Assembly (NCBI GenBank): GCA_029861865.1
Contig: JAOTYL010000007.1
Location: forward strand, 124,001-188,000
DNA: 64,000 nt
Source: Myxococcales bacterium
GTDB taxonomy: Bacteria; Myxococcota_A; Polyangia; Polyangiales; Houyiibacteriaceae
Reading direction: 5' to 3'
Shown here in pieces: positions 5,975 to 22,459 of this stretch. The notes under the pieces were generated by a model. That model was not told the DNA's origin, made no database searches, and worked only from the letters and a program-made list of their open reading frames with translations. Every line of letters begins with the position of its first letter. Position 1 is the stretch's first letter. Both the position numbers and the translations under genes were made by a program.

Positions 5975-7519
5975 ATGGCCTCGAGCGATGTCCTGATCGT
6001 CGGCGCGGGGCACAACGGGCTCGTCGCGGCGGTGGTGCTGGCGAGGGCGGGGCTCAGCGTGAAGGTGCTCGAAGCCGCGGCGGTTGCAGGTGGAGCGTGC
6101 CGGACCGAGTACCCGTTCTCGAAGGCCCCGAACGTCGGGCAGTCGACAGGGGCCTACCTGCTCGGCCTCATGCCTCCAGAGCTCATGGAAGAGCTCTGTA
6201 TCTCGCTGCCCTTGGTTCGTCGCGACCCGCACTACTTTCTGCCAACCACAGGCGATCGGTACTTGCTCTCTGGCTCGGATGCGGATGCCACTCGGGATCA
6301 GCTCACGGCGATGTTTTCGAAGGCCGATGCGCGCGCCAACGACGCGCTGCGAGAGGAGCTCGCGAGGCTTCGTGAGGACATCGCACCGACGTGGCTACGA
6401 GCTCCGCTCTCGATCGAGGACACGGCAGAACGTTACGTGCGTCCCGCGCTGCGTCAGGTTTTTGTCGAGCTGTGCCGCGGGTCGGTCGGGACCTACCTTC
6501 GGCGCTTCGGTTTTCAAAGCGAGATCCTCGAGGCGATGTATGCCGTCACCGACGGTTTCACCGGGCTTTGCGGCGCATGGGACACGCCCGGGAGCGGGAT
6601 GAACTTCCTCGTACACAATATGTGCCGGCTTCCCGGATCTGACGGCACCTGGATGATCGTGCGCGGAGGTATGGGATCGGTCACGGAGGCGCTCGTCGAC
6701 GCCGCACGAAGGGCGGGCGCGGAGATCGAGCTCGACGCTCCGGTTTCGAGGATCGAAGTCGAGAGTGGCACGGTGCACGGCGTAGTGACCGGTGACGGCG
6801 GTTTGCATCGAGCTTCAGTGGTCGTAGTCGGCGCCGATCCATTTCGCTTGCGCGTGATGCTGGACGACGCATGTCCGTCGGAGCTCTCCGACAGGATCGA
6901 GTCCTATCGACGACCGGGCACCACCATGAAGGTCAACCTATGCCTGCACGACTTGCCGAAGTTCTCGTGCCTCCCCGAGCCACGCGGCCAACACGGCGCC
7001 ACCATCCATCTCCTTCCCGAGGAAGACACGCTCGCCCGGCTTCGTCGCGCCTTCGCGGATTGCCGGGAAGGGCGGCTCCCCGAGACACCGTCGATCGAGT
7101 GGTACATCCATACGACGCTAGACCCTTCCCTTCGGGACGCGCAGGGCCGTCATAGCGCCGCGCTCTTCGTGCAGTGGGTGCCGTACGCGCTCGCGCAGGG
7201 CTCCTGGGAGACCGAAACGGATCGTTACGTTCGGTCGCTCCTTGCCCTCTGTGATCGGTTCGCGCCCGGCACCTCCGAGCTGGTGGTCGATGCGTTCGTC
7301 CTCACGCCTCCAAAGATCGAGTCACACTTCGGGCTCACGGCCGGTCACATTCATCACGTCGACAACAGCTTTGGGTTCGCCGATAGGCTTCCATACTCGC
7401 TCGGCGTGGCGGGGCTATACGCATGTGGTGCGGGCTGTCATCCGGCGGGGTCGGTCATTGGGGCTGCAGGGTACAACGCCGCCAAGGTCGTATTGACGGA
7501 CCTGGCTATTTCTTCTTGA
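5975..7519 (+). CDS. FAD-dependent oxidoreductase, PYROXD2/phytoene-desaturase-like
   Basis: This 514-residue protein opens with the Rossmann motif VLIVGAGHNGLVAA, followed by the VLEAAAVAGGACRTE stretch typical of the CrtI/PYROXD2 amine-oxidase-like superfamily. The C-terminal segment ACGAGCHPAGSVIGAAGYNAA is the second FAD-contact region. Family members oxidise or isomerise polyenes and other hydrophobic substrates; no carotenoid gene is nearby, so the substrate is unknown. A paralogue lies at 53370-54815. Its 3' end overlaps the convergent TPR gene by 14 bp. Confidence 0.85.
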   Translation: MASSDVLIVGAGHNGLVAAVVLARAGLSVKVLEAAAVAGGACRTEYPFSKAPNVGQSTGAYLLGLMPPELMEELCISLPLVRRDPHYFLPTTGDRYLLSGSDADATRDQLTAMFSKADARANDALREELARLREDIAPTWLRAPLSIEDTAERYVRPALRQVFVELCRGSVGTYLRRFGFQSEILEAMYAVTDGFTGLCGAWDTPGSGMNFLVHNMCRLPGSDGTWMIVRGGMGSVTEALVDAARRAGAEIELDAPVSRIEVESGTVHGVVTGDGGLHRASVVVVGADPFRLRVMLDDACPSELSDRIESYRRPGTTMKVNLCLHDLPKFSCLPEPRGQHGATIHLLPEEDTLARLRRAFADCREGRLPETPSIEWYIHTTLDPSLRDAQGRHSAALFVQWVPYALAQGSWETETDRYVRSLLALCDRFAPGTSELVVDAFVLTPPKIESHFGLTAGHIHHVDNSFGFADRLPYSLGVAGLYACGAGCHPAGSVIGAAGYNAAKVVLTDLAISS

Positions 7520-17568: not shown

Positions 17569-17630
17569 GCCTATTCCGATCCACCACACGCTAGCTGGCC
17601 TGTGATAGCCTTCCGAAGAGGGAGGGCGTC

Positions 17631-18290
17631 ATGGCAACGGTCTTGATCACGGGCGCGAACAAGGGAATCGGACTCGAGCTCAGCCGGCAACTCCGTGCGC
17701 GCGGCGATGAGGTGATCGCCCTTTGCCGTAGCGTTAGTCCCGAGCTCCAGGCGCTTGGGGTTCGATCGTTCGAAGGAGTCGACGTGACGAGCCGAGAGGC
17801 GCTACAAGCCGTATCACGGGAGCTCGGCGACACACGCATCGATATCCTGATCAACAACGCCGGAATCTTCGAGCAGGAGTCCTTCGATGACCTCGACTTC
17901 GATCGGATTCGCAAACAGTTCGAGGTCAACGCGTTAGGTGCATTGCTGGTCACCCAGATCATGCGACGCCACCTCGCAGAGGGCTCCAAGATCATTCTCA
18001 TCACCAGCCGGATGGGCTCGATAGGCGACAACGGATCAGGTAGCTACTACGGATACCGAATGTCGAAAGCGGCTCTGAACATGGCTGGAGTGAACCTCGC
18101 CCACGACTTTCGAGACAAAGGGGTGTCGGTTGCGATCCTGCACCCTGGTTTCGTTGCCACCAACATGACGGGGCGCCAAGGCATCCCTGCCGCGGAAGCT
18201 GCCAAGGGCTTGATCGCGCGCATCGACGAGCTGAGACTCGAGAGCTCCGGCGGTTTCTGGCACGCCAACGGCGAGCGTCTTCCCTGGTAG
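17631..18290 (+). CDS. Short-chain dehydrogenase/reductase, C-factor-like
   Basis: The 219-residue SDR has the NAD(P)-binding TGANKGIGLEL, the NNAG motif, and the catalytic Tyr/Lys of YGYRMSKAALNM with serine earlier (ITSRMGS). The short length and motif set resemble the Myxococcus C-signal/CsgA-type SDRs, but that assignment is weak, as many SDRs look alike. It probably reduces a carbonyl in the cytosol. The 163-bp palindromic element follows its stop. Confidence 0.85.
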   Translation: MATVLITGANKGIGLELSRQLRARGDEVIALCRSVSPELQALGVRSFEGVDVTSREALQAVSRELGDTRIDILINNAGIFEQESFDDLDFDRIRKQFEVNALGALLVTQIMRRHLAEGSKIILITSRMGSIGDNGSGSYYGYRMSKAALNMAGVNLAHDFRDKGVSVAILHPGFVATNMTGRQGIPAAEAAKGLIARIDELRLESSGGFWHANGERLPW

Positions 18291-18299
18291 GTTCACGGG

Positions 18300-18462
18300 T
18301 ATGCCGGGCTGCGGTGCGCGGCACGCCCTCGCCCACTCAGACATCCTCGGCGGGGATGTTTGGAAACGGTGTCGAAGCCCTCTAGGTGGTGGCGTTGGCA
18401 ATATGGGTTGGCGCCTGCGGAACTCGCGTTCGAGGACATGCCGCGCGCCGCAGCCTGGCATA
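18300..18462. repeat. 163-bp near-palindromic intergenic element (24-bp imperfect terminal arms)
   Basis: Positions 18300-18323 and 18439-18462 are inverted repeats of 24 bp with two mismatches. Inside, ACATCC (18341-18346) pairs with GGATGT (18354-18359) to make a small hairpin. It fits neither convergent gene (SDR and NlpC/P60), although the GC-rich stretch has open frames that look like noise. It could be a REP/MITE-like element or a folded RNA. Confidence 0.7.
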
Positions 18463-18475
18463 CCTACTTCACTAA

Positions 18476-18529
18476 GACACTGACGCTGGCGCTGACACTG
18501 ACGCTGGCACTGCCGCTGACGCTGTCAGT
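18476..18529. repeat. Hexanucleotide repeat array, site B
   Basis: Nine 6-bp units run without interruption: GACACT, GACGCT, GGCGCT, GACACT, GACGCT, GGCACT, GCCGCT, GACGCT, GTCAGT. On the minus strand the last unit supplies the TGA stop of the NlpC/P60 gene. The unit family matches site A and site C. Confidence 0.82.
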
Positions 18530-21524
18530 GTGGTCTTTCTCTCGTAGCGAACCAGCTTCTATATTTCTCCATTCGCCTTCGCTGCTCTTCGGGTGCGTGG
18601 CGTTTGCATGTCGTGTGCTCTTCCGTCCCTTGCGGCGCGCCCCAGCGAATCTCGGCGCAGTCGTTGGGGTTGTACGCCATCTCCATGGCCGAGCTCCGGT
18701 CGACGAGGTCGGCTAGGGTCAAACTCCATGCGCTCCCATCGGACCTCGTGTATTGGAAGGTTCGCTTGCCGATCTCTTCTGCGAGGGCCTGCCGGACCTC
18801 GGCAACCACGTTGTCCCGATCAGCCTCTCGTATACCGAAGCGGTCGGGATGGGCGGCCACGGTGCTCGCGAACGAAGTGACGGCGTCGATGCTGATCAGC
18901 AGCCGCATGTCTCGAGAAGGGGTCGAGTAGTCCTCCCAAGGGCCCGACGTCAGGAACAGGGCGGCGCCCGAGGGCATGTCGATTGTCGCGTAGCCTTGCG
19001 ATCGCATGAAGTCTTCGCCGTTTTGGACCGAGCTCAGGCGCCGCTGGACCGATTCCTCGAGGGCGTCGACCAGGCTCGTTTGCATTCGAACCGGGTCGAG
19101 CGCGCGAGGATTGATCATGCCCTCCATGGCGCTGTAGAAGTCGTCCGCTGTTCCACGGTATTGCGCGTCGGACCAGGCCTTCACACGGCCGGCTCGACGA
19201 AGCTCGGCGTTCGTTGCGATCTTCAGCGCCTGAGCCTCGCTATCGAATCCGACGGGGCGCCATCCCTTGAAGCCTGCGCCCACCAGGTCCGTCTTGGGCG
19301 TGAACAAGAACGAACCGCGCCAAAAGCGACGACGACCCACCGTTCCGTCCGGTTGGGCGTCCGCGCCGATCAACACGCCGTAGTCGTCGACTGCTTGCGG
19401 CTTCCAACGTGCGACCACCAATACGTGGCCGTACGGATCGGCAAACACCGTTCCCGGGCGGATCGCCGTGCGGCTCAGGCGCAAGGGATAGAAGTCGGTC
19501 TCCTCTTCGTCCGGGCGCGTGCGTGGGCTCGACGAATGGACCGTGCCCGCCACGCGCCTCATGAAACTCCGAAAGGCGCCGACATCGGTCGCGGCTTCTT
19601 GGAGGTCGAGGTTGCTGAAGACGGCGGGGTCGCAGACCGGAGGCTGATCTCTCCGGCCGCGGCTGCATGTTCGGTAGGCGAACGGAAGCCCGACTTTCCA
19701 AGCGAAGTAGGCGCGAAGGAAATAGGGTAGGTCGGCGCAGTCCGGCTCGAGGGAAAGCCGCGCGTCCTCGCCTTGGAGCCGGTAGTCGTAAAGCAGGTTT
19801 CGCTTCGGATCGCCGATGACCTCTTGAAGCCTCGTCCAGGTCACGTCCTCGTCCTCAGGATCGCGAAATAGCTGCTCGATGAACGCCGAGTAGAGATTTT
19901 CGGTGCTCCGGCTCCACTGCCGTGTCGTTGCCCAGGCTGGGCCAGCGGGTTGGCGTCGCGGCCCTCGGGGAGCGCGGGAGGCGACCACGAACCGATGACA
20001 CGCGAGCGTCCGATCGCCTTCACCCAACACCGCGGTCCACTTTCCAGGCATGGGTTGCGCGACTTCGACGAAGCGGCTGAATGGCGGCCCGTCGAGTATG
20101 CGCTCTTCGGCGTCGACCTGCTCACCATTTGGGCCATAGAGCACGAGTGCGGCGATCCCGGGGTCTCGCTCGCTCGTCGCGATCACGCGAAGGGGCTGCG
20201 TCGCATGTGGCCGTCGCGGCGACGCAAAGATCGCATTGCTCTGCGAGTCACGGCACGCGCCCTCAGGTCGGGCCATAGGCGCGCTCGGCCGCAGCACCGC
20301 ATTGGCCGCGAGGGCGGGTCCAGGTGTTCTTCCGATCACGGTAAGGTGTGTAATGCGACTGAGGAAATCGGTGCGTGAGCTTCCCTCACCGAGGGAAAGG
20401 TCGCTGATCGCGACCCGGTCGACTCGATTGACCGTTTCGAGCTCGGTGCCTTCGCACGGTGTCAGGTATTCGGAGAAGGCGTGCATCGCCATCGGAATCC
20501 CTTCCTCCGTCGTGCCGAGGTACAACATGATGTGCCCTGGGAAACGCAGCAGCACGATACCGCGACGCGCCGCTGCCTCGAGCAGGAGTCGCTTCTCGTT
20601 GAGGTCTCGCACTTCCGAAACATCGACCGAGAATGTGCCGGCCTTGGCCTGGCGTGCGCTGTGTCGTGGCAGATCGATGCCGAAACGACCAAAGACCTCG
20701 AGCAGAAACCGAGAGCAATCGTAGCCTCCGTCTTTTCCGCCCCAGCCGTAGGGCGCGCCGAGCAGCGAAAACGCCTCGGTCAAGAGGGCCCGACGCGTGA
20801 ACGGCGGCGGCTCAGACCGAGCGAGCTCTCGTTGCAAGGATTCGGGTGAAAGCGGCCCGGACAGGTCCTTACCCGTGACCCAGCCGAGTGCGTACGGGGT
20901 GCGTGCCAGAAAAAGCCCGTTTGGCCAGCGCGACAGAAGCTGAACGACTTCGCCCGGTCGAATGGTGCTGCATCGGTTGCGATCGAAGTCCAAGTCGACT
21001 GGTATGTGGTAGAGCCCCTCCGGATACGGGCCGCACCGTAGGGGCTTGAGCGCCTCGGCGAGCCGCCATTGCTGCAGCAGCTCGAGCCCGTCTGGTTGGT
21101 CGAATGGTGAAAGAGCGTCGGCCTCGATCGCTTTGCCCTTCGCATCGACCAACGTACCGTCGCCGAGCTTCGCGCGCAGGTAGTCGAGCCGCTCGCCGAC
21201 CTGAGCCAAGAGCGCCGCTTCGTCTACGGGGGCCGCGAGGTCGGCGTGCCCAAGTGGCTCCCCGTCGATCAGCTCACCAAGAGCGATGTTATGCCTTTGC
21301 ACTTCTTCTGGGGCGAGAAGCGGCGTGTCGACCGGCTCGTACGCCTCCGCACGCGTCAGCCAGTACTCGAGCTGTTCGTGTTCTGGTGCCACGTTCGCGA
21401 GAGGGGGCGCGACCCGGCGGACTTCGGGGCAACTCGGGTCGCGGCGTTCAGTGACGGGGGAATCGTCGCGGCAGCTCGGACACGTGAGACACACTACGGC
21501 CCCGAGGGCCGCGAGTCTCGTCAT
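18525..21524 (-). CDS. NlpC/P60 lipoprotein with SH3 and a second papain-like Cys-His domain
   Basis: The ATG at 21524 overlaps the upstream stop by 4 bp (ATGA) and gives 999 residues with a lipobox (CLTCPSC). An N-terminal helical region precedes an SH3-like segment (about 184-221, ending ALGWV). The NlpC/P60 domain follows: Cys in YDCSRF (about residue 270), His in GHIMLYLG (about 331) and a third polar residue near MHAF (about 348). These domains cleave peptidoglycan stem peptides. The last ~480 residues contain a second possible active site, Cys in DCADLPYFLRAY (about 596) and His in DPYGHVLVV (about 700), resembling transglutaminase/NlpC folds. This C-terminal part is otherwise unrecognised. 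It is last in the MepA operon. Confidence 0.87.
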   Translation of the reverse strand: MTRLAALGAVVCLTCPSCRDDSPVTERRDPSCPEVRRVAPPLANVAPEHEQLEYWLTRAEAYEPVDTPLLAPEEVQRHNIALGELIDGEPLGHADLAAPVDEAALLAQVGERLDYLRAKLGDGTLVDAKGKAIEADALSPFDQPDGLELLQQWRLAEALKPLRCGPYPEGLYHIPVDLDFDRNRCSTIRPGEVVQLLSRWPNGLFLARTPYALGWVTGKDLSGPLSPESLQRELARSEPPPFTRRALLTEAFSLLGAPYGWGGKDGGYDCSRFLLEVFGRFGIDLPRHSARQAKAGTFSVDVSEVRDLNEKRLLLEAAARRGIVLLRFPGHIMLYLGTTEEGIPMAMHAFSEYLTPCEGTELETVNRVDRVAISDLSLGEGSSRTDFLSRITHLTVIGRTPGPALAANAVLRPSAPMARPEGACRDSQSNAIFASPRRPHATQPLRVIATSERDPGIAALVLYGPNGEQVDAEERILDGPPFSRFVEVAQPMPGKWTAVLGEGDRTLACHRFVVASRAPRGPRRQPAGPAWATTRQWSRSTENLYSAFIEQLFRDPEDEDVTWTRLQEVIGDPKRNLLYDYRLQGEDARLSLEPDCADLPYFLRAYFAWKVGLPFAYRTCSRGRRDQPPVCDPAVFSNLDLQEAATDVGAFRSFMRRVAGTVHSSSPRTRPDEEETDFYPLRLSRTAIRPGTVFADPYGHVLVVARWKPQAVDDYGVLIGADAQPDGTVGRRRFWRGSFLFTPKTDLVGAGFKGWRPVGFDSEAQALKIATNAELRRAGRVKAWSDAQYRGTADDFYSAMEGMINPRALDPVRMQTSLVDALEESVQRRLSSVQNGEDFMRSQGYATIDMPSGAALFLTSGPWEDYSTPSRDMRLLISIDAVTSFASTVAAHPDRFGIREADRDNVVAEVRQALAEEIGKRTFQYTRSDGSAWSLTLADLVDRSSAMEMAYNPNDCAEIRWGAPQGTEEHTTCKRHAPEEQRRRMEKYRSWFATRERPH

Positions 21525-22459
21525 GTAGGCGCCAGCATCCATCGAATGATTTGGTCGTCGACCGTACCGCTGGTCCCTATACCGAGGTCCACTTGCTGCG
21601 GAAAGCCGACGTGTCCTCCCCGGTCGGTGATAACACGTCGGAGCCTCTTCGCGCTGGCAAGCCAGGGTCGCACCGTATCGATCAGCACCATCGGGTCCCG
21701 CTCGGCCGCTACGAAAAGCGTGGGGGTCTCGATATCGCCGAGGATGTTGCATGCGCTCGTCTTCGCCCAGTAGTCCTCGGCCCCAGCAAACCCGTGACGA
21801 GGCGAAATCACCTCTTCATCCCATTGCTCAAGCGTGTCGATTCGCATGGCCTTGTCGATGGGCAGGGGTACGCCTCGCCGTGCAGCGACCTTTTGGTAGA
21901 TCTCCTTGAGCCCGCGCAGCATGTGAAGTCGATAGAATGCGCGATGGGGTCTGTCGATCGCACGCGCGCCCTTTTCGAGATCGATCGGGGAGCAAACCGC
22001 CGCCGCGGCCCGCACACGCGGATCGGGGTTGCCCGCGAGATATCGAAGCACCATGTTGCCGCCCAGCGAATACCCAAGCAGTAGAATGCGATCGTACGCC
22101 TGCAGTGGTTTGCTACGAAGCGCGGCCTCGAGATCGGCTATCAGTCCTGCGTGGTAGAAGTCCTCGCCCCGGCGGTCTGCTCCGCGGAGGTTCAATCGCA
22201 AACTGTCGAGACCTGCCCGTGCTGCAGCTTGTGCGGCCCGTACCGCGTAGTAGCTCGTCGCGCTTCCGCCGAGCCCGTGCACGATCACGACGAGGGTGTT
22301 GGACGCGCCACTCTGCGACAGCCGGCCGTTGAGGCTCAAGGTGCCGACTACCCCGTCCTCGAGCCGCGTCACCCATTCCGTCGATTGCGGCGCCCGCGGC
22401 GGGATCAGCGTGTGGCGAAGAAACGGCGCGAGGGTCCAGAAGTGACCCCGCAGGCTCAT
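21521..22459 (-). CDS. Alpha/beta hydrolase, YheT-type
   Basis: The ATG at 22459 overlaps the stop of the MepA gene (ATGA) and gives 312 residues. Motifs: HGLGGS oxyanion region, nucleophile Ser in LLGYSLGGNM, and His in DRGGHVGF. The DLEAALRS and RSPID-type segments match the YheT/EMB8 family of esterase-like hydrolases, whose substrates are mostly unknown. Because it is locked between two peptidoglycan-enzyme genes, an envelope-related ester substrate is plausible, but this is inference. The open frame extending upstream to 22804 overlaps MepA and is not used. Confidence 0.87.
   Translation of the reverse strand: MSLRGHFWTLAPFLRHTLIPPRAPQSTEWVTRLEDGVVGTLSLNGRLSQSGASNTLVVIVHGLGGSATSYYAVRAAQAAARAGLDSLRLNLRGADRRGEDFYHAGLIADLEAALRSKPLQAYDRILLLGYSLGGNMVLRYLAGNPDPRVRAAAAVCSPIDLEKGARAIDRPHRAFYRLHMLRGLKEIYQKVAARRGVPLPIDKAMRIDTLEQWDEEVISPRHGFAGAEDYWAKTSACNILGDIETPTLFVAAERDPMVLIDTVRPWLASAKRLRRVITDRGGHVGFPQQVDLGIGTSGTVDDQIIRWMLAPT

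Follow-up and report, generated by a model that had tools for sequence, protein, structure and literature searches.

A probable new family of non-autonomous mobile palindromic repeats in one myxobacterial genus

Integron attC sites have arms that are variable in sequence, are kept as a hairpin and lie directly behind stop codons, and the repeat bcr1 is about 155 bp long. ERIC, RU-1 and other bacterial MITEs are intergenic imperfect palindromes of about 100-170 bp. The bcr repeats of the Bacillus cereus group are mobile-like and intergenic, and several carry a conserved RNA structure, according to PMC3446304. REP and REPIN sequences, with their RAYT transposases, resemble the element described here in being dispersed intergenic palindromes that lie close after stop codons and often between convergent genes. 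PMC3733652 describes REPs as located for the most part between convergent or unidirectional genes; in convergent pairs the distance to the 3' end of the upstream gene is mostly below 20 bp.

Here we analyze a palindrome in a stretch of 64,000 nucleotides from a Myxococcales bacterium, which we call the window and whose positions are used throughout. An earlier note, made from the sequence alone, had pointed to a 163-bp near-palindrome with 24-bp arms carrying two mismatches, located between convergent genes and directly beside a hexamer array. The features of the locus are the following.

18296-18473, minus (the best-folding strand for the family overall): whole element, core I class, found by the plus-oriented R1 covariance model at 193.4 bits.
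18298-18323, no strand: left arm of the outer stem (columns 3-28 of alignment A2).
18439-18464, no strand: right arm of the outer stem (columns 145-170 of alignment A2).
18320-18359, no strand: conserved core block 1, which contains the inner hairpin (A2 columns 25-64, mostly invariant in 13 copies).
18360-18403, no strand: variable middle, with small indels among copies (A2 columns 65-109).
18404-18441, no strand: conserved core block 2 (A2 columns 110-147).
18465-18479, no strand: outer end on the array side, a version of the family's TACTYCKCGARRACA end with at least two changes in the window copy (alignment A1 and a pattern scan).
18476-18524, no strand: hexamer array of the CTGACR/CTGGCR type, a neighbor outside the hairpin (Tandem Repeats Finder; genus-wide repeat).
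17631-18290, plus: short-chain dehydrogenase gene (PF00106), with its stop 5 nt before the element.
18525-21752, minus: NlpC/P60-domain gene (PF00877), convergent; on the folding strand its stop precedes the element.

The palindrome is real and beyond chance. The window copy folds with -106.4 kcal/mol on the plus strand (z -6.5) and -92.6 kcal/mol on the minus strand (z -5.7), and on neither strand was any of 200 dinucleotide shuffles as good. The 24-bp arms were recovered at 18300-18323 and 18439-18462, where, on the plus strand, both mismatches form G-U pairs, and the convergent gene arrangement and the adjoining array are as had been described. The length of 163 bp proved slightly short, because the family model places the whole element, 178 bp, at 18296-18473. 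The TACTYCKCGARRACA-type end of the window copy is absent from the 22 pattern matches obtained with up to two mismatches allowed. Two short open reading frames overlap the window copy, and a coding element was rejected: the middle gains or loses single bases from copy to copy (A2, 176-179 nt), so that no reading frame is kept. An intrinsic terminator was rejected as well, the stem having no T run behind it on either strand; one weak terminator-like site lies at the end of the array, at 18514-18530 (0.5 expected).

The earlier note had proposed a genome-wide similarity search, and held that a single copy absent from close relatives would speak against its reading. Run on the 4.2-Mb genome of the window itself (G000; 23 contigs), this search gave 14 matches to the window element, 11 of them full length, and with further copies in congeners and a genus-wide sister family the element is neither single nor private. 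When 57 genomes were searched (56 relatives and the own genome), one full core I copy each was found in the sister species G018 and in G009, the remaining matches being short. The exact core I motif occurs, among 84,980 species, in two records only, metagenome bins named 'Deltaproteobacteria' and 'Myxococcales', both of which are relatives. In the 13 full core I copies (A2, 176-179 nt), two near-invariant blocks flank a middle that varies and has small gaps, and the outer arms, though different between copies, stay complementary.

Weaker R1 matches represent a different element, which shares both ends (CTCTGCGTCAACC-stem and stem-TACTCCTCGAGAACA) but has another core, and pattern searches with the shared ends gave further sites, some of them truncated or core-less. 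Across the order (183 genomes), the 5' end pattern, with no more than one mismatch allowed, was found 23 times in G000, 23 times in G018 and once each in G009 and G121, the single G121 match being probably due to chance. The shared ends occur with at least three core classes, and our catalogue of 36 full copies, about 145-180 bp long, comprises at least 13 of core I, at least 17 of core II and at least 6 of core III. It was built with loose pattern scripts and then filtered by core motifs, and it leaves out truncated copies (for instance C6:705970 and C10:981) and three matches of the core II model R2 (G000 C13:48637, G018 C11:105596 and G018 C4:293505). R1 matched only G000, G018 and G009 among the 19 genus genomes, R2 matched 17 of these 19 and none of 14 other family genomes (33 family genomes searched), and the core III model found full copies in G018 only; the match counts of all three models are not copy numbers, because they include opposite-strand matches of the same element and cross-matches between core classes, and the number of scored candidates was limited. 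Core II copies of other species have wholly different arms around GGGC-AGCACA-GCG ... CGC-GAGCAC-GCCC, an inner motif that is near-invariant across 16 species (alignment A9), with exceptions in single copies.

No match to a core I motif or a core II motif was found in IMG/VR, none to one core II copy among plasmids, and none to the window copy among phages; phage or plasmid cargo was ruled out on these searches. The open-access literature searched held no description of such repeats in this group.

In core I (13 full copies), both sides have changed with pairing kept at 13 of the 54 plus-strand pairs and at 12 of the 47 minus-strand pairs, and double changes affect 5 of 46 pairs in the core II copies. 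Across species, core II double changes rise to 23 of 46 pairs in alignment A7 (16 copies) and 27 of 46 in A8 (47 distinct copies; 93.1% of cells paired), both alignments being fitted to the structure of the core II model. None of 500 shuffles of A8 reached any of five measures, and slid versions gave 7-13 pairs. An independent MAFFT alignment (A9; 18 copies from 16 species) has compensatory double changes at 17 of 31 pairs, and compensatory changes above controls, as looked for in structured RNAs, were thus present in both A8 and A9. The alignments indicate that the folded shape is kept by evolution while the sequence of the arms changes.

Consensus folding favors the minus strand in all three classes, with minus and plus energies of -87.2 and -79.3 for core I, -95.0 and -52.4 for core II, where the preference is strong, and -82.3 and -74.5 for core III. 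Pairs were counted in the outer arms, where the register is identical on both strands. On the minus strand, G-U pairs outnumber A-C pairs by 49 to 7 over the three classes (29:3 in core II, 7:0 in core III and 13:4 in core I) in tests that treat copies without regard to shared ancestry, and the ratio of 15:6 across species is not significant (p 0.08). Judged by these wobble pairs, the predicted folding strand is put on the window's minus strand. The window copy is an exception: its plus strand folds better, and it holds two of the seven A-C pairs.

The family shares features with several of the systems named above. It can be likened to the bcr repeats as a mobile-like intergenic repeat with conserved RNA structure; it belongs to another phylum, and its exchangeable cores and hexamer arrays are particular to it. 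It has the size and imperfect palindromy of ERIC and RU-1, whereas its arms are conserved between species in pairing and not in sequence. With attC sites it has in common sequence-variable arms kept as a hairpin and placement directly after stops, but it carries long conserved cores. An attC identity was rejected, since the GTTRRRY and RYYYAAC end boxes were not seen by eye.

Gene contexts, based on our own ORF heuristic, place 18 of the 36 catalogued copies between convergent genes, 18 between unidirectional genes and none between divergent genes. In the unidirectional contexts, 10 copies lie on the same strand and 8 opposite to the plus orientation, and there is thus no strand bias. Of the 28 copies that follow a gene on the same strand, 19 begin within 20 nt of its stop.

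In the own genome, 15 of 23 copies have a hexamer array no more than 100 nt away on the array side and none has one on the other side (110 of 5556 random windows). The corresponding values are 5 and 3 of 12 copies in G018 (36 of 5182 random windows), and the one G009 copy has no array on either side. Intergenic arrays of this kind (CAGYGN type) gave 984 overlapping pattern hits in the own genome versus 121 for the reversed control, and they exceed the control in 18 of the 19 genus genomes, G010 having 0 versus 5 and G018 only 24 versus 13. Most genus genomes without these ends also have arrays above the control level, and the array as part of the element was therefore rejected as the sole reading; it is a frequent neighbor and a separate genus-wide repeat. 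The array units vary mainly at two of the six positions. In several congeners a different repeat, of the CCGCATCGCGTTCCGCCGCGCCCC type, replaces the hexamers before the hairpin (G005: L284, L287, L289 and L291; G016: L292 and L293). Another repeated palindrome, GTGATTTCCTTTCCGAG ... CTCGGAAAGGAAATCAC, was seen near several elements (L044 at about 5985-6075; L084, L154 and L160).

The own genome and that of its sister species G018 are about 88% identical in shared stretches, and 13 shared sites were read by eye. Of 17 pairs set up, 4 were unusable and one was too doubtful, and another contributed two sites; the total of 13 includes the L048 site. Both copies are intact at 3 sites, namely two pairs of core II orthologues and one site where core II faces core III, and at the other 10 truncation, emptying or loss has affected one copy or both. 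Core identity was readable in both species at 10 sites, and was the same at 6 and different at 4. At one of these four, G000 C5:54506, the DNA is almost identical to G018 C20 up to the stem, where a core I copy faces a damaged core II. In the first pair compared, G018 has hexamers where the own genome has a core I copy. At the window site, the dehydrogenase orthologue was without hairpin, as judged by eye, in all 13 relatives with downstream DNA compared, and in G009 hexamers directly follow the dehydrogenase stop, also by eye. These comparisons yielded neither a target-site duplication nor a clean empty site, and the window locus is rearranged in G018. When window positions 17600-19500 are set beside G018 C42:7000-9251, the flanking genes have another relative orientation, and in several congeners they are on separate contigs; the window junction is therefore a rearranged one. 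Tandem and inverted pairs of elements exist as well. On G018 C40 (L093, 1640-2480), about 600 bp, perhaps a gene, lie between two inverted hairpins, and in the counterpart on G000 C6 (L156, 2760-2880) both the 600 bp and the hairpins are gone, down to a TCACCGGT repeat.

We consider it probable that the window element belongs to a new family of palindromic repeats, non-autonomous and mobile, that measure 145-180 bp and occur in one myxobacterial genus. In the best reading, the family is REP- and MITE-like but without the size of a REP or a Y1 transposase; terminal inverted repeats, as in MITEs, are present. Dispersal is supported by copies at unrelated genes within one genome, and mobility by the hexamers found in relatives at the window site and at a second site where the own genome carries a hairpin. 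Against mobility, most compared sites are common to both species, which at about 88% identity makes many copies old. From the sequences we infer that copies have moved. They would be spread by an enzyme supplied in trans, which would recognize the conserved core or the inner loop of the folded single strand (single-stranded DNA or RNA), so that selection would preserve the fold while the element spreads. Most copies would decay after landing, and the cores would be subfamilies that replace one another at old sites, through short-homology recombination via the shared arms, repeated insertion, or loss from tandem or paired copies. A self-propagating element with a recognized single-stranded fold fits the fold itself, the dispersal, the species-specific arms, the decay and the absence of strand preference toward genes.

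The sites intact in both species leave room for function at some loci. It is unlikely, on present comparisons of sequence, that the family as a whole is a host non-coding RNA or UTR element that was multiplied and kept for function at each locus, as in 3'-end protection, processing or regulation. Such a role would suit the strong covariation with G-U tolerance on one strand, the near-invariant inner motif in A9, and the placement at gene 3' ends, with a gene upstream on the folding strand in 26 of the 36 copies. However, the other 10 have no such gene, no Rfam family matched above the gathering score, only sub-threshold chance matches occurring at the elements, and a scan of the window copy for sigma-70-like promoters, which is a weak test in this phylum, gave none. 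The lack of strand bias (10 versus 8) and the damage or loss in at least one species at 10 of 13 shared sites argue for self-propagation over a locus-bound host role.

We find it quite unlikely that the arms and ends are fixed chromosomal docking hairpins and the cores mobile RNA-like cassettes that home into or replace each other via a folded single-strand intermediate; cassettes exchanged in this way would explain why sister species hold different cores at the same position.

That the family belongs to the REP/REPIN type and was moved by a RAYT (Y1) transposase since lost from the own genome is distinctly doubtful. Its distribution between convergent and unidirectional genes and its short distances from same-strand stops agree with the REPs described in PMC3733652, 13 of the 19 genus genomes contain Y1 genes, and most core II and core III copies of G000 and G018 have GTAG at the stem base, read on the folding strand, with CGTC in the other flank. 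In copies of other species, however, GTAG is not at that position, and the full copies, at 145-179 bp versus 20-40 bp for a REP palindrome, are 4-9 times longer, with large conserved cores of at least three classes. The search for a mobilizer covered Y1 transposases, and PF01797 had no match in G000 or G018, both 100% complete; no repeat-flanked RAYT gene was found, and none of the eight Y1 loci examined in congeners had a core-II-type hairpin within up to 1.5 kb on each side. The congeners' Y1 genes are solitary (for example L208-L215). A REPIN with a resident RAYT was ruled out, as G000 has no Y1 transposase. Thus, both halves of the earlier description as a 'MITE/REPIN-type element or a folded RNA' hold in part, as a dispersed mobile-like palindrome and as pairing kept by compensatory changes, and by the tests made the element is not a REPIN.

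Template switching during replication can mend imperfect palindromes. That the arms pair without selection, through such mending and with double changes due to mutation alone, is very improbable: the double changes are concentrated in the long arms, as this would predict, but mending treats the strands alike, and yet G-U exceeds A-C in the arms also when counted by columns (11:3 in core II, 4:0 in core III, 10:4 in core I and 8:4 across species), and the inner motif stays near-invariant while the arms change.

The spread of short, gene-free palindromes in bacteria is a long-standing problem, as is the level, DNA or RNA, at which they act. The probably mobile family described here offers handles on it: it can be compared among about 20 related species whose arms differ while a single fold is preserved, its strand signal is clear, sister species have sites that look empty or have swapped cores, and genomes rich in copies have no RAYT. 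A mobilizer, if found, would represent a new way for hairpins to spread; should a host role emerge instead, the near-invariant inner loop (AGCACA / GAGCAC) would be a candidate binding site.
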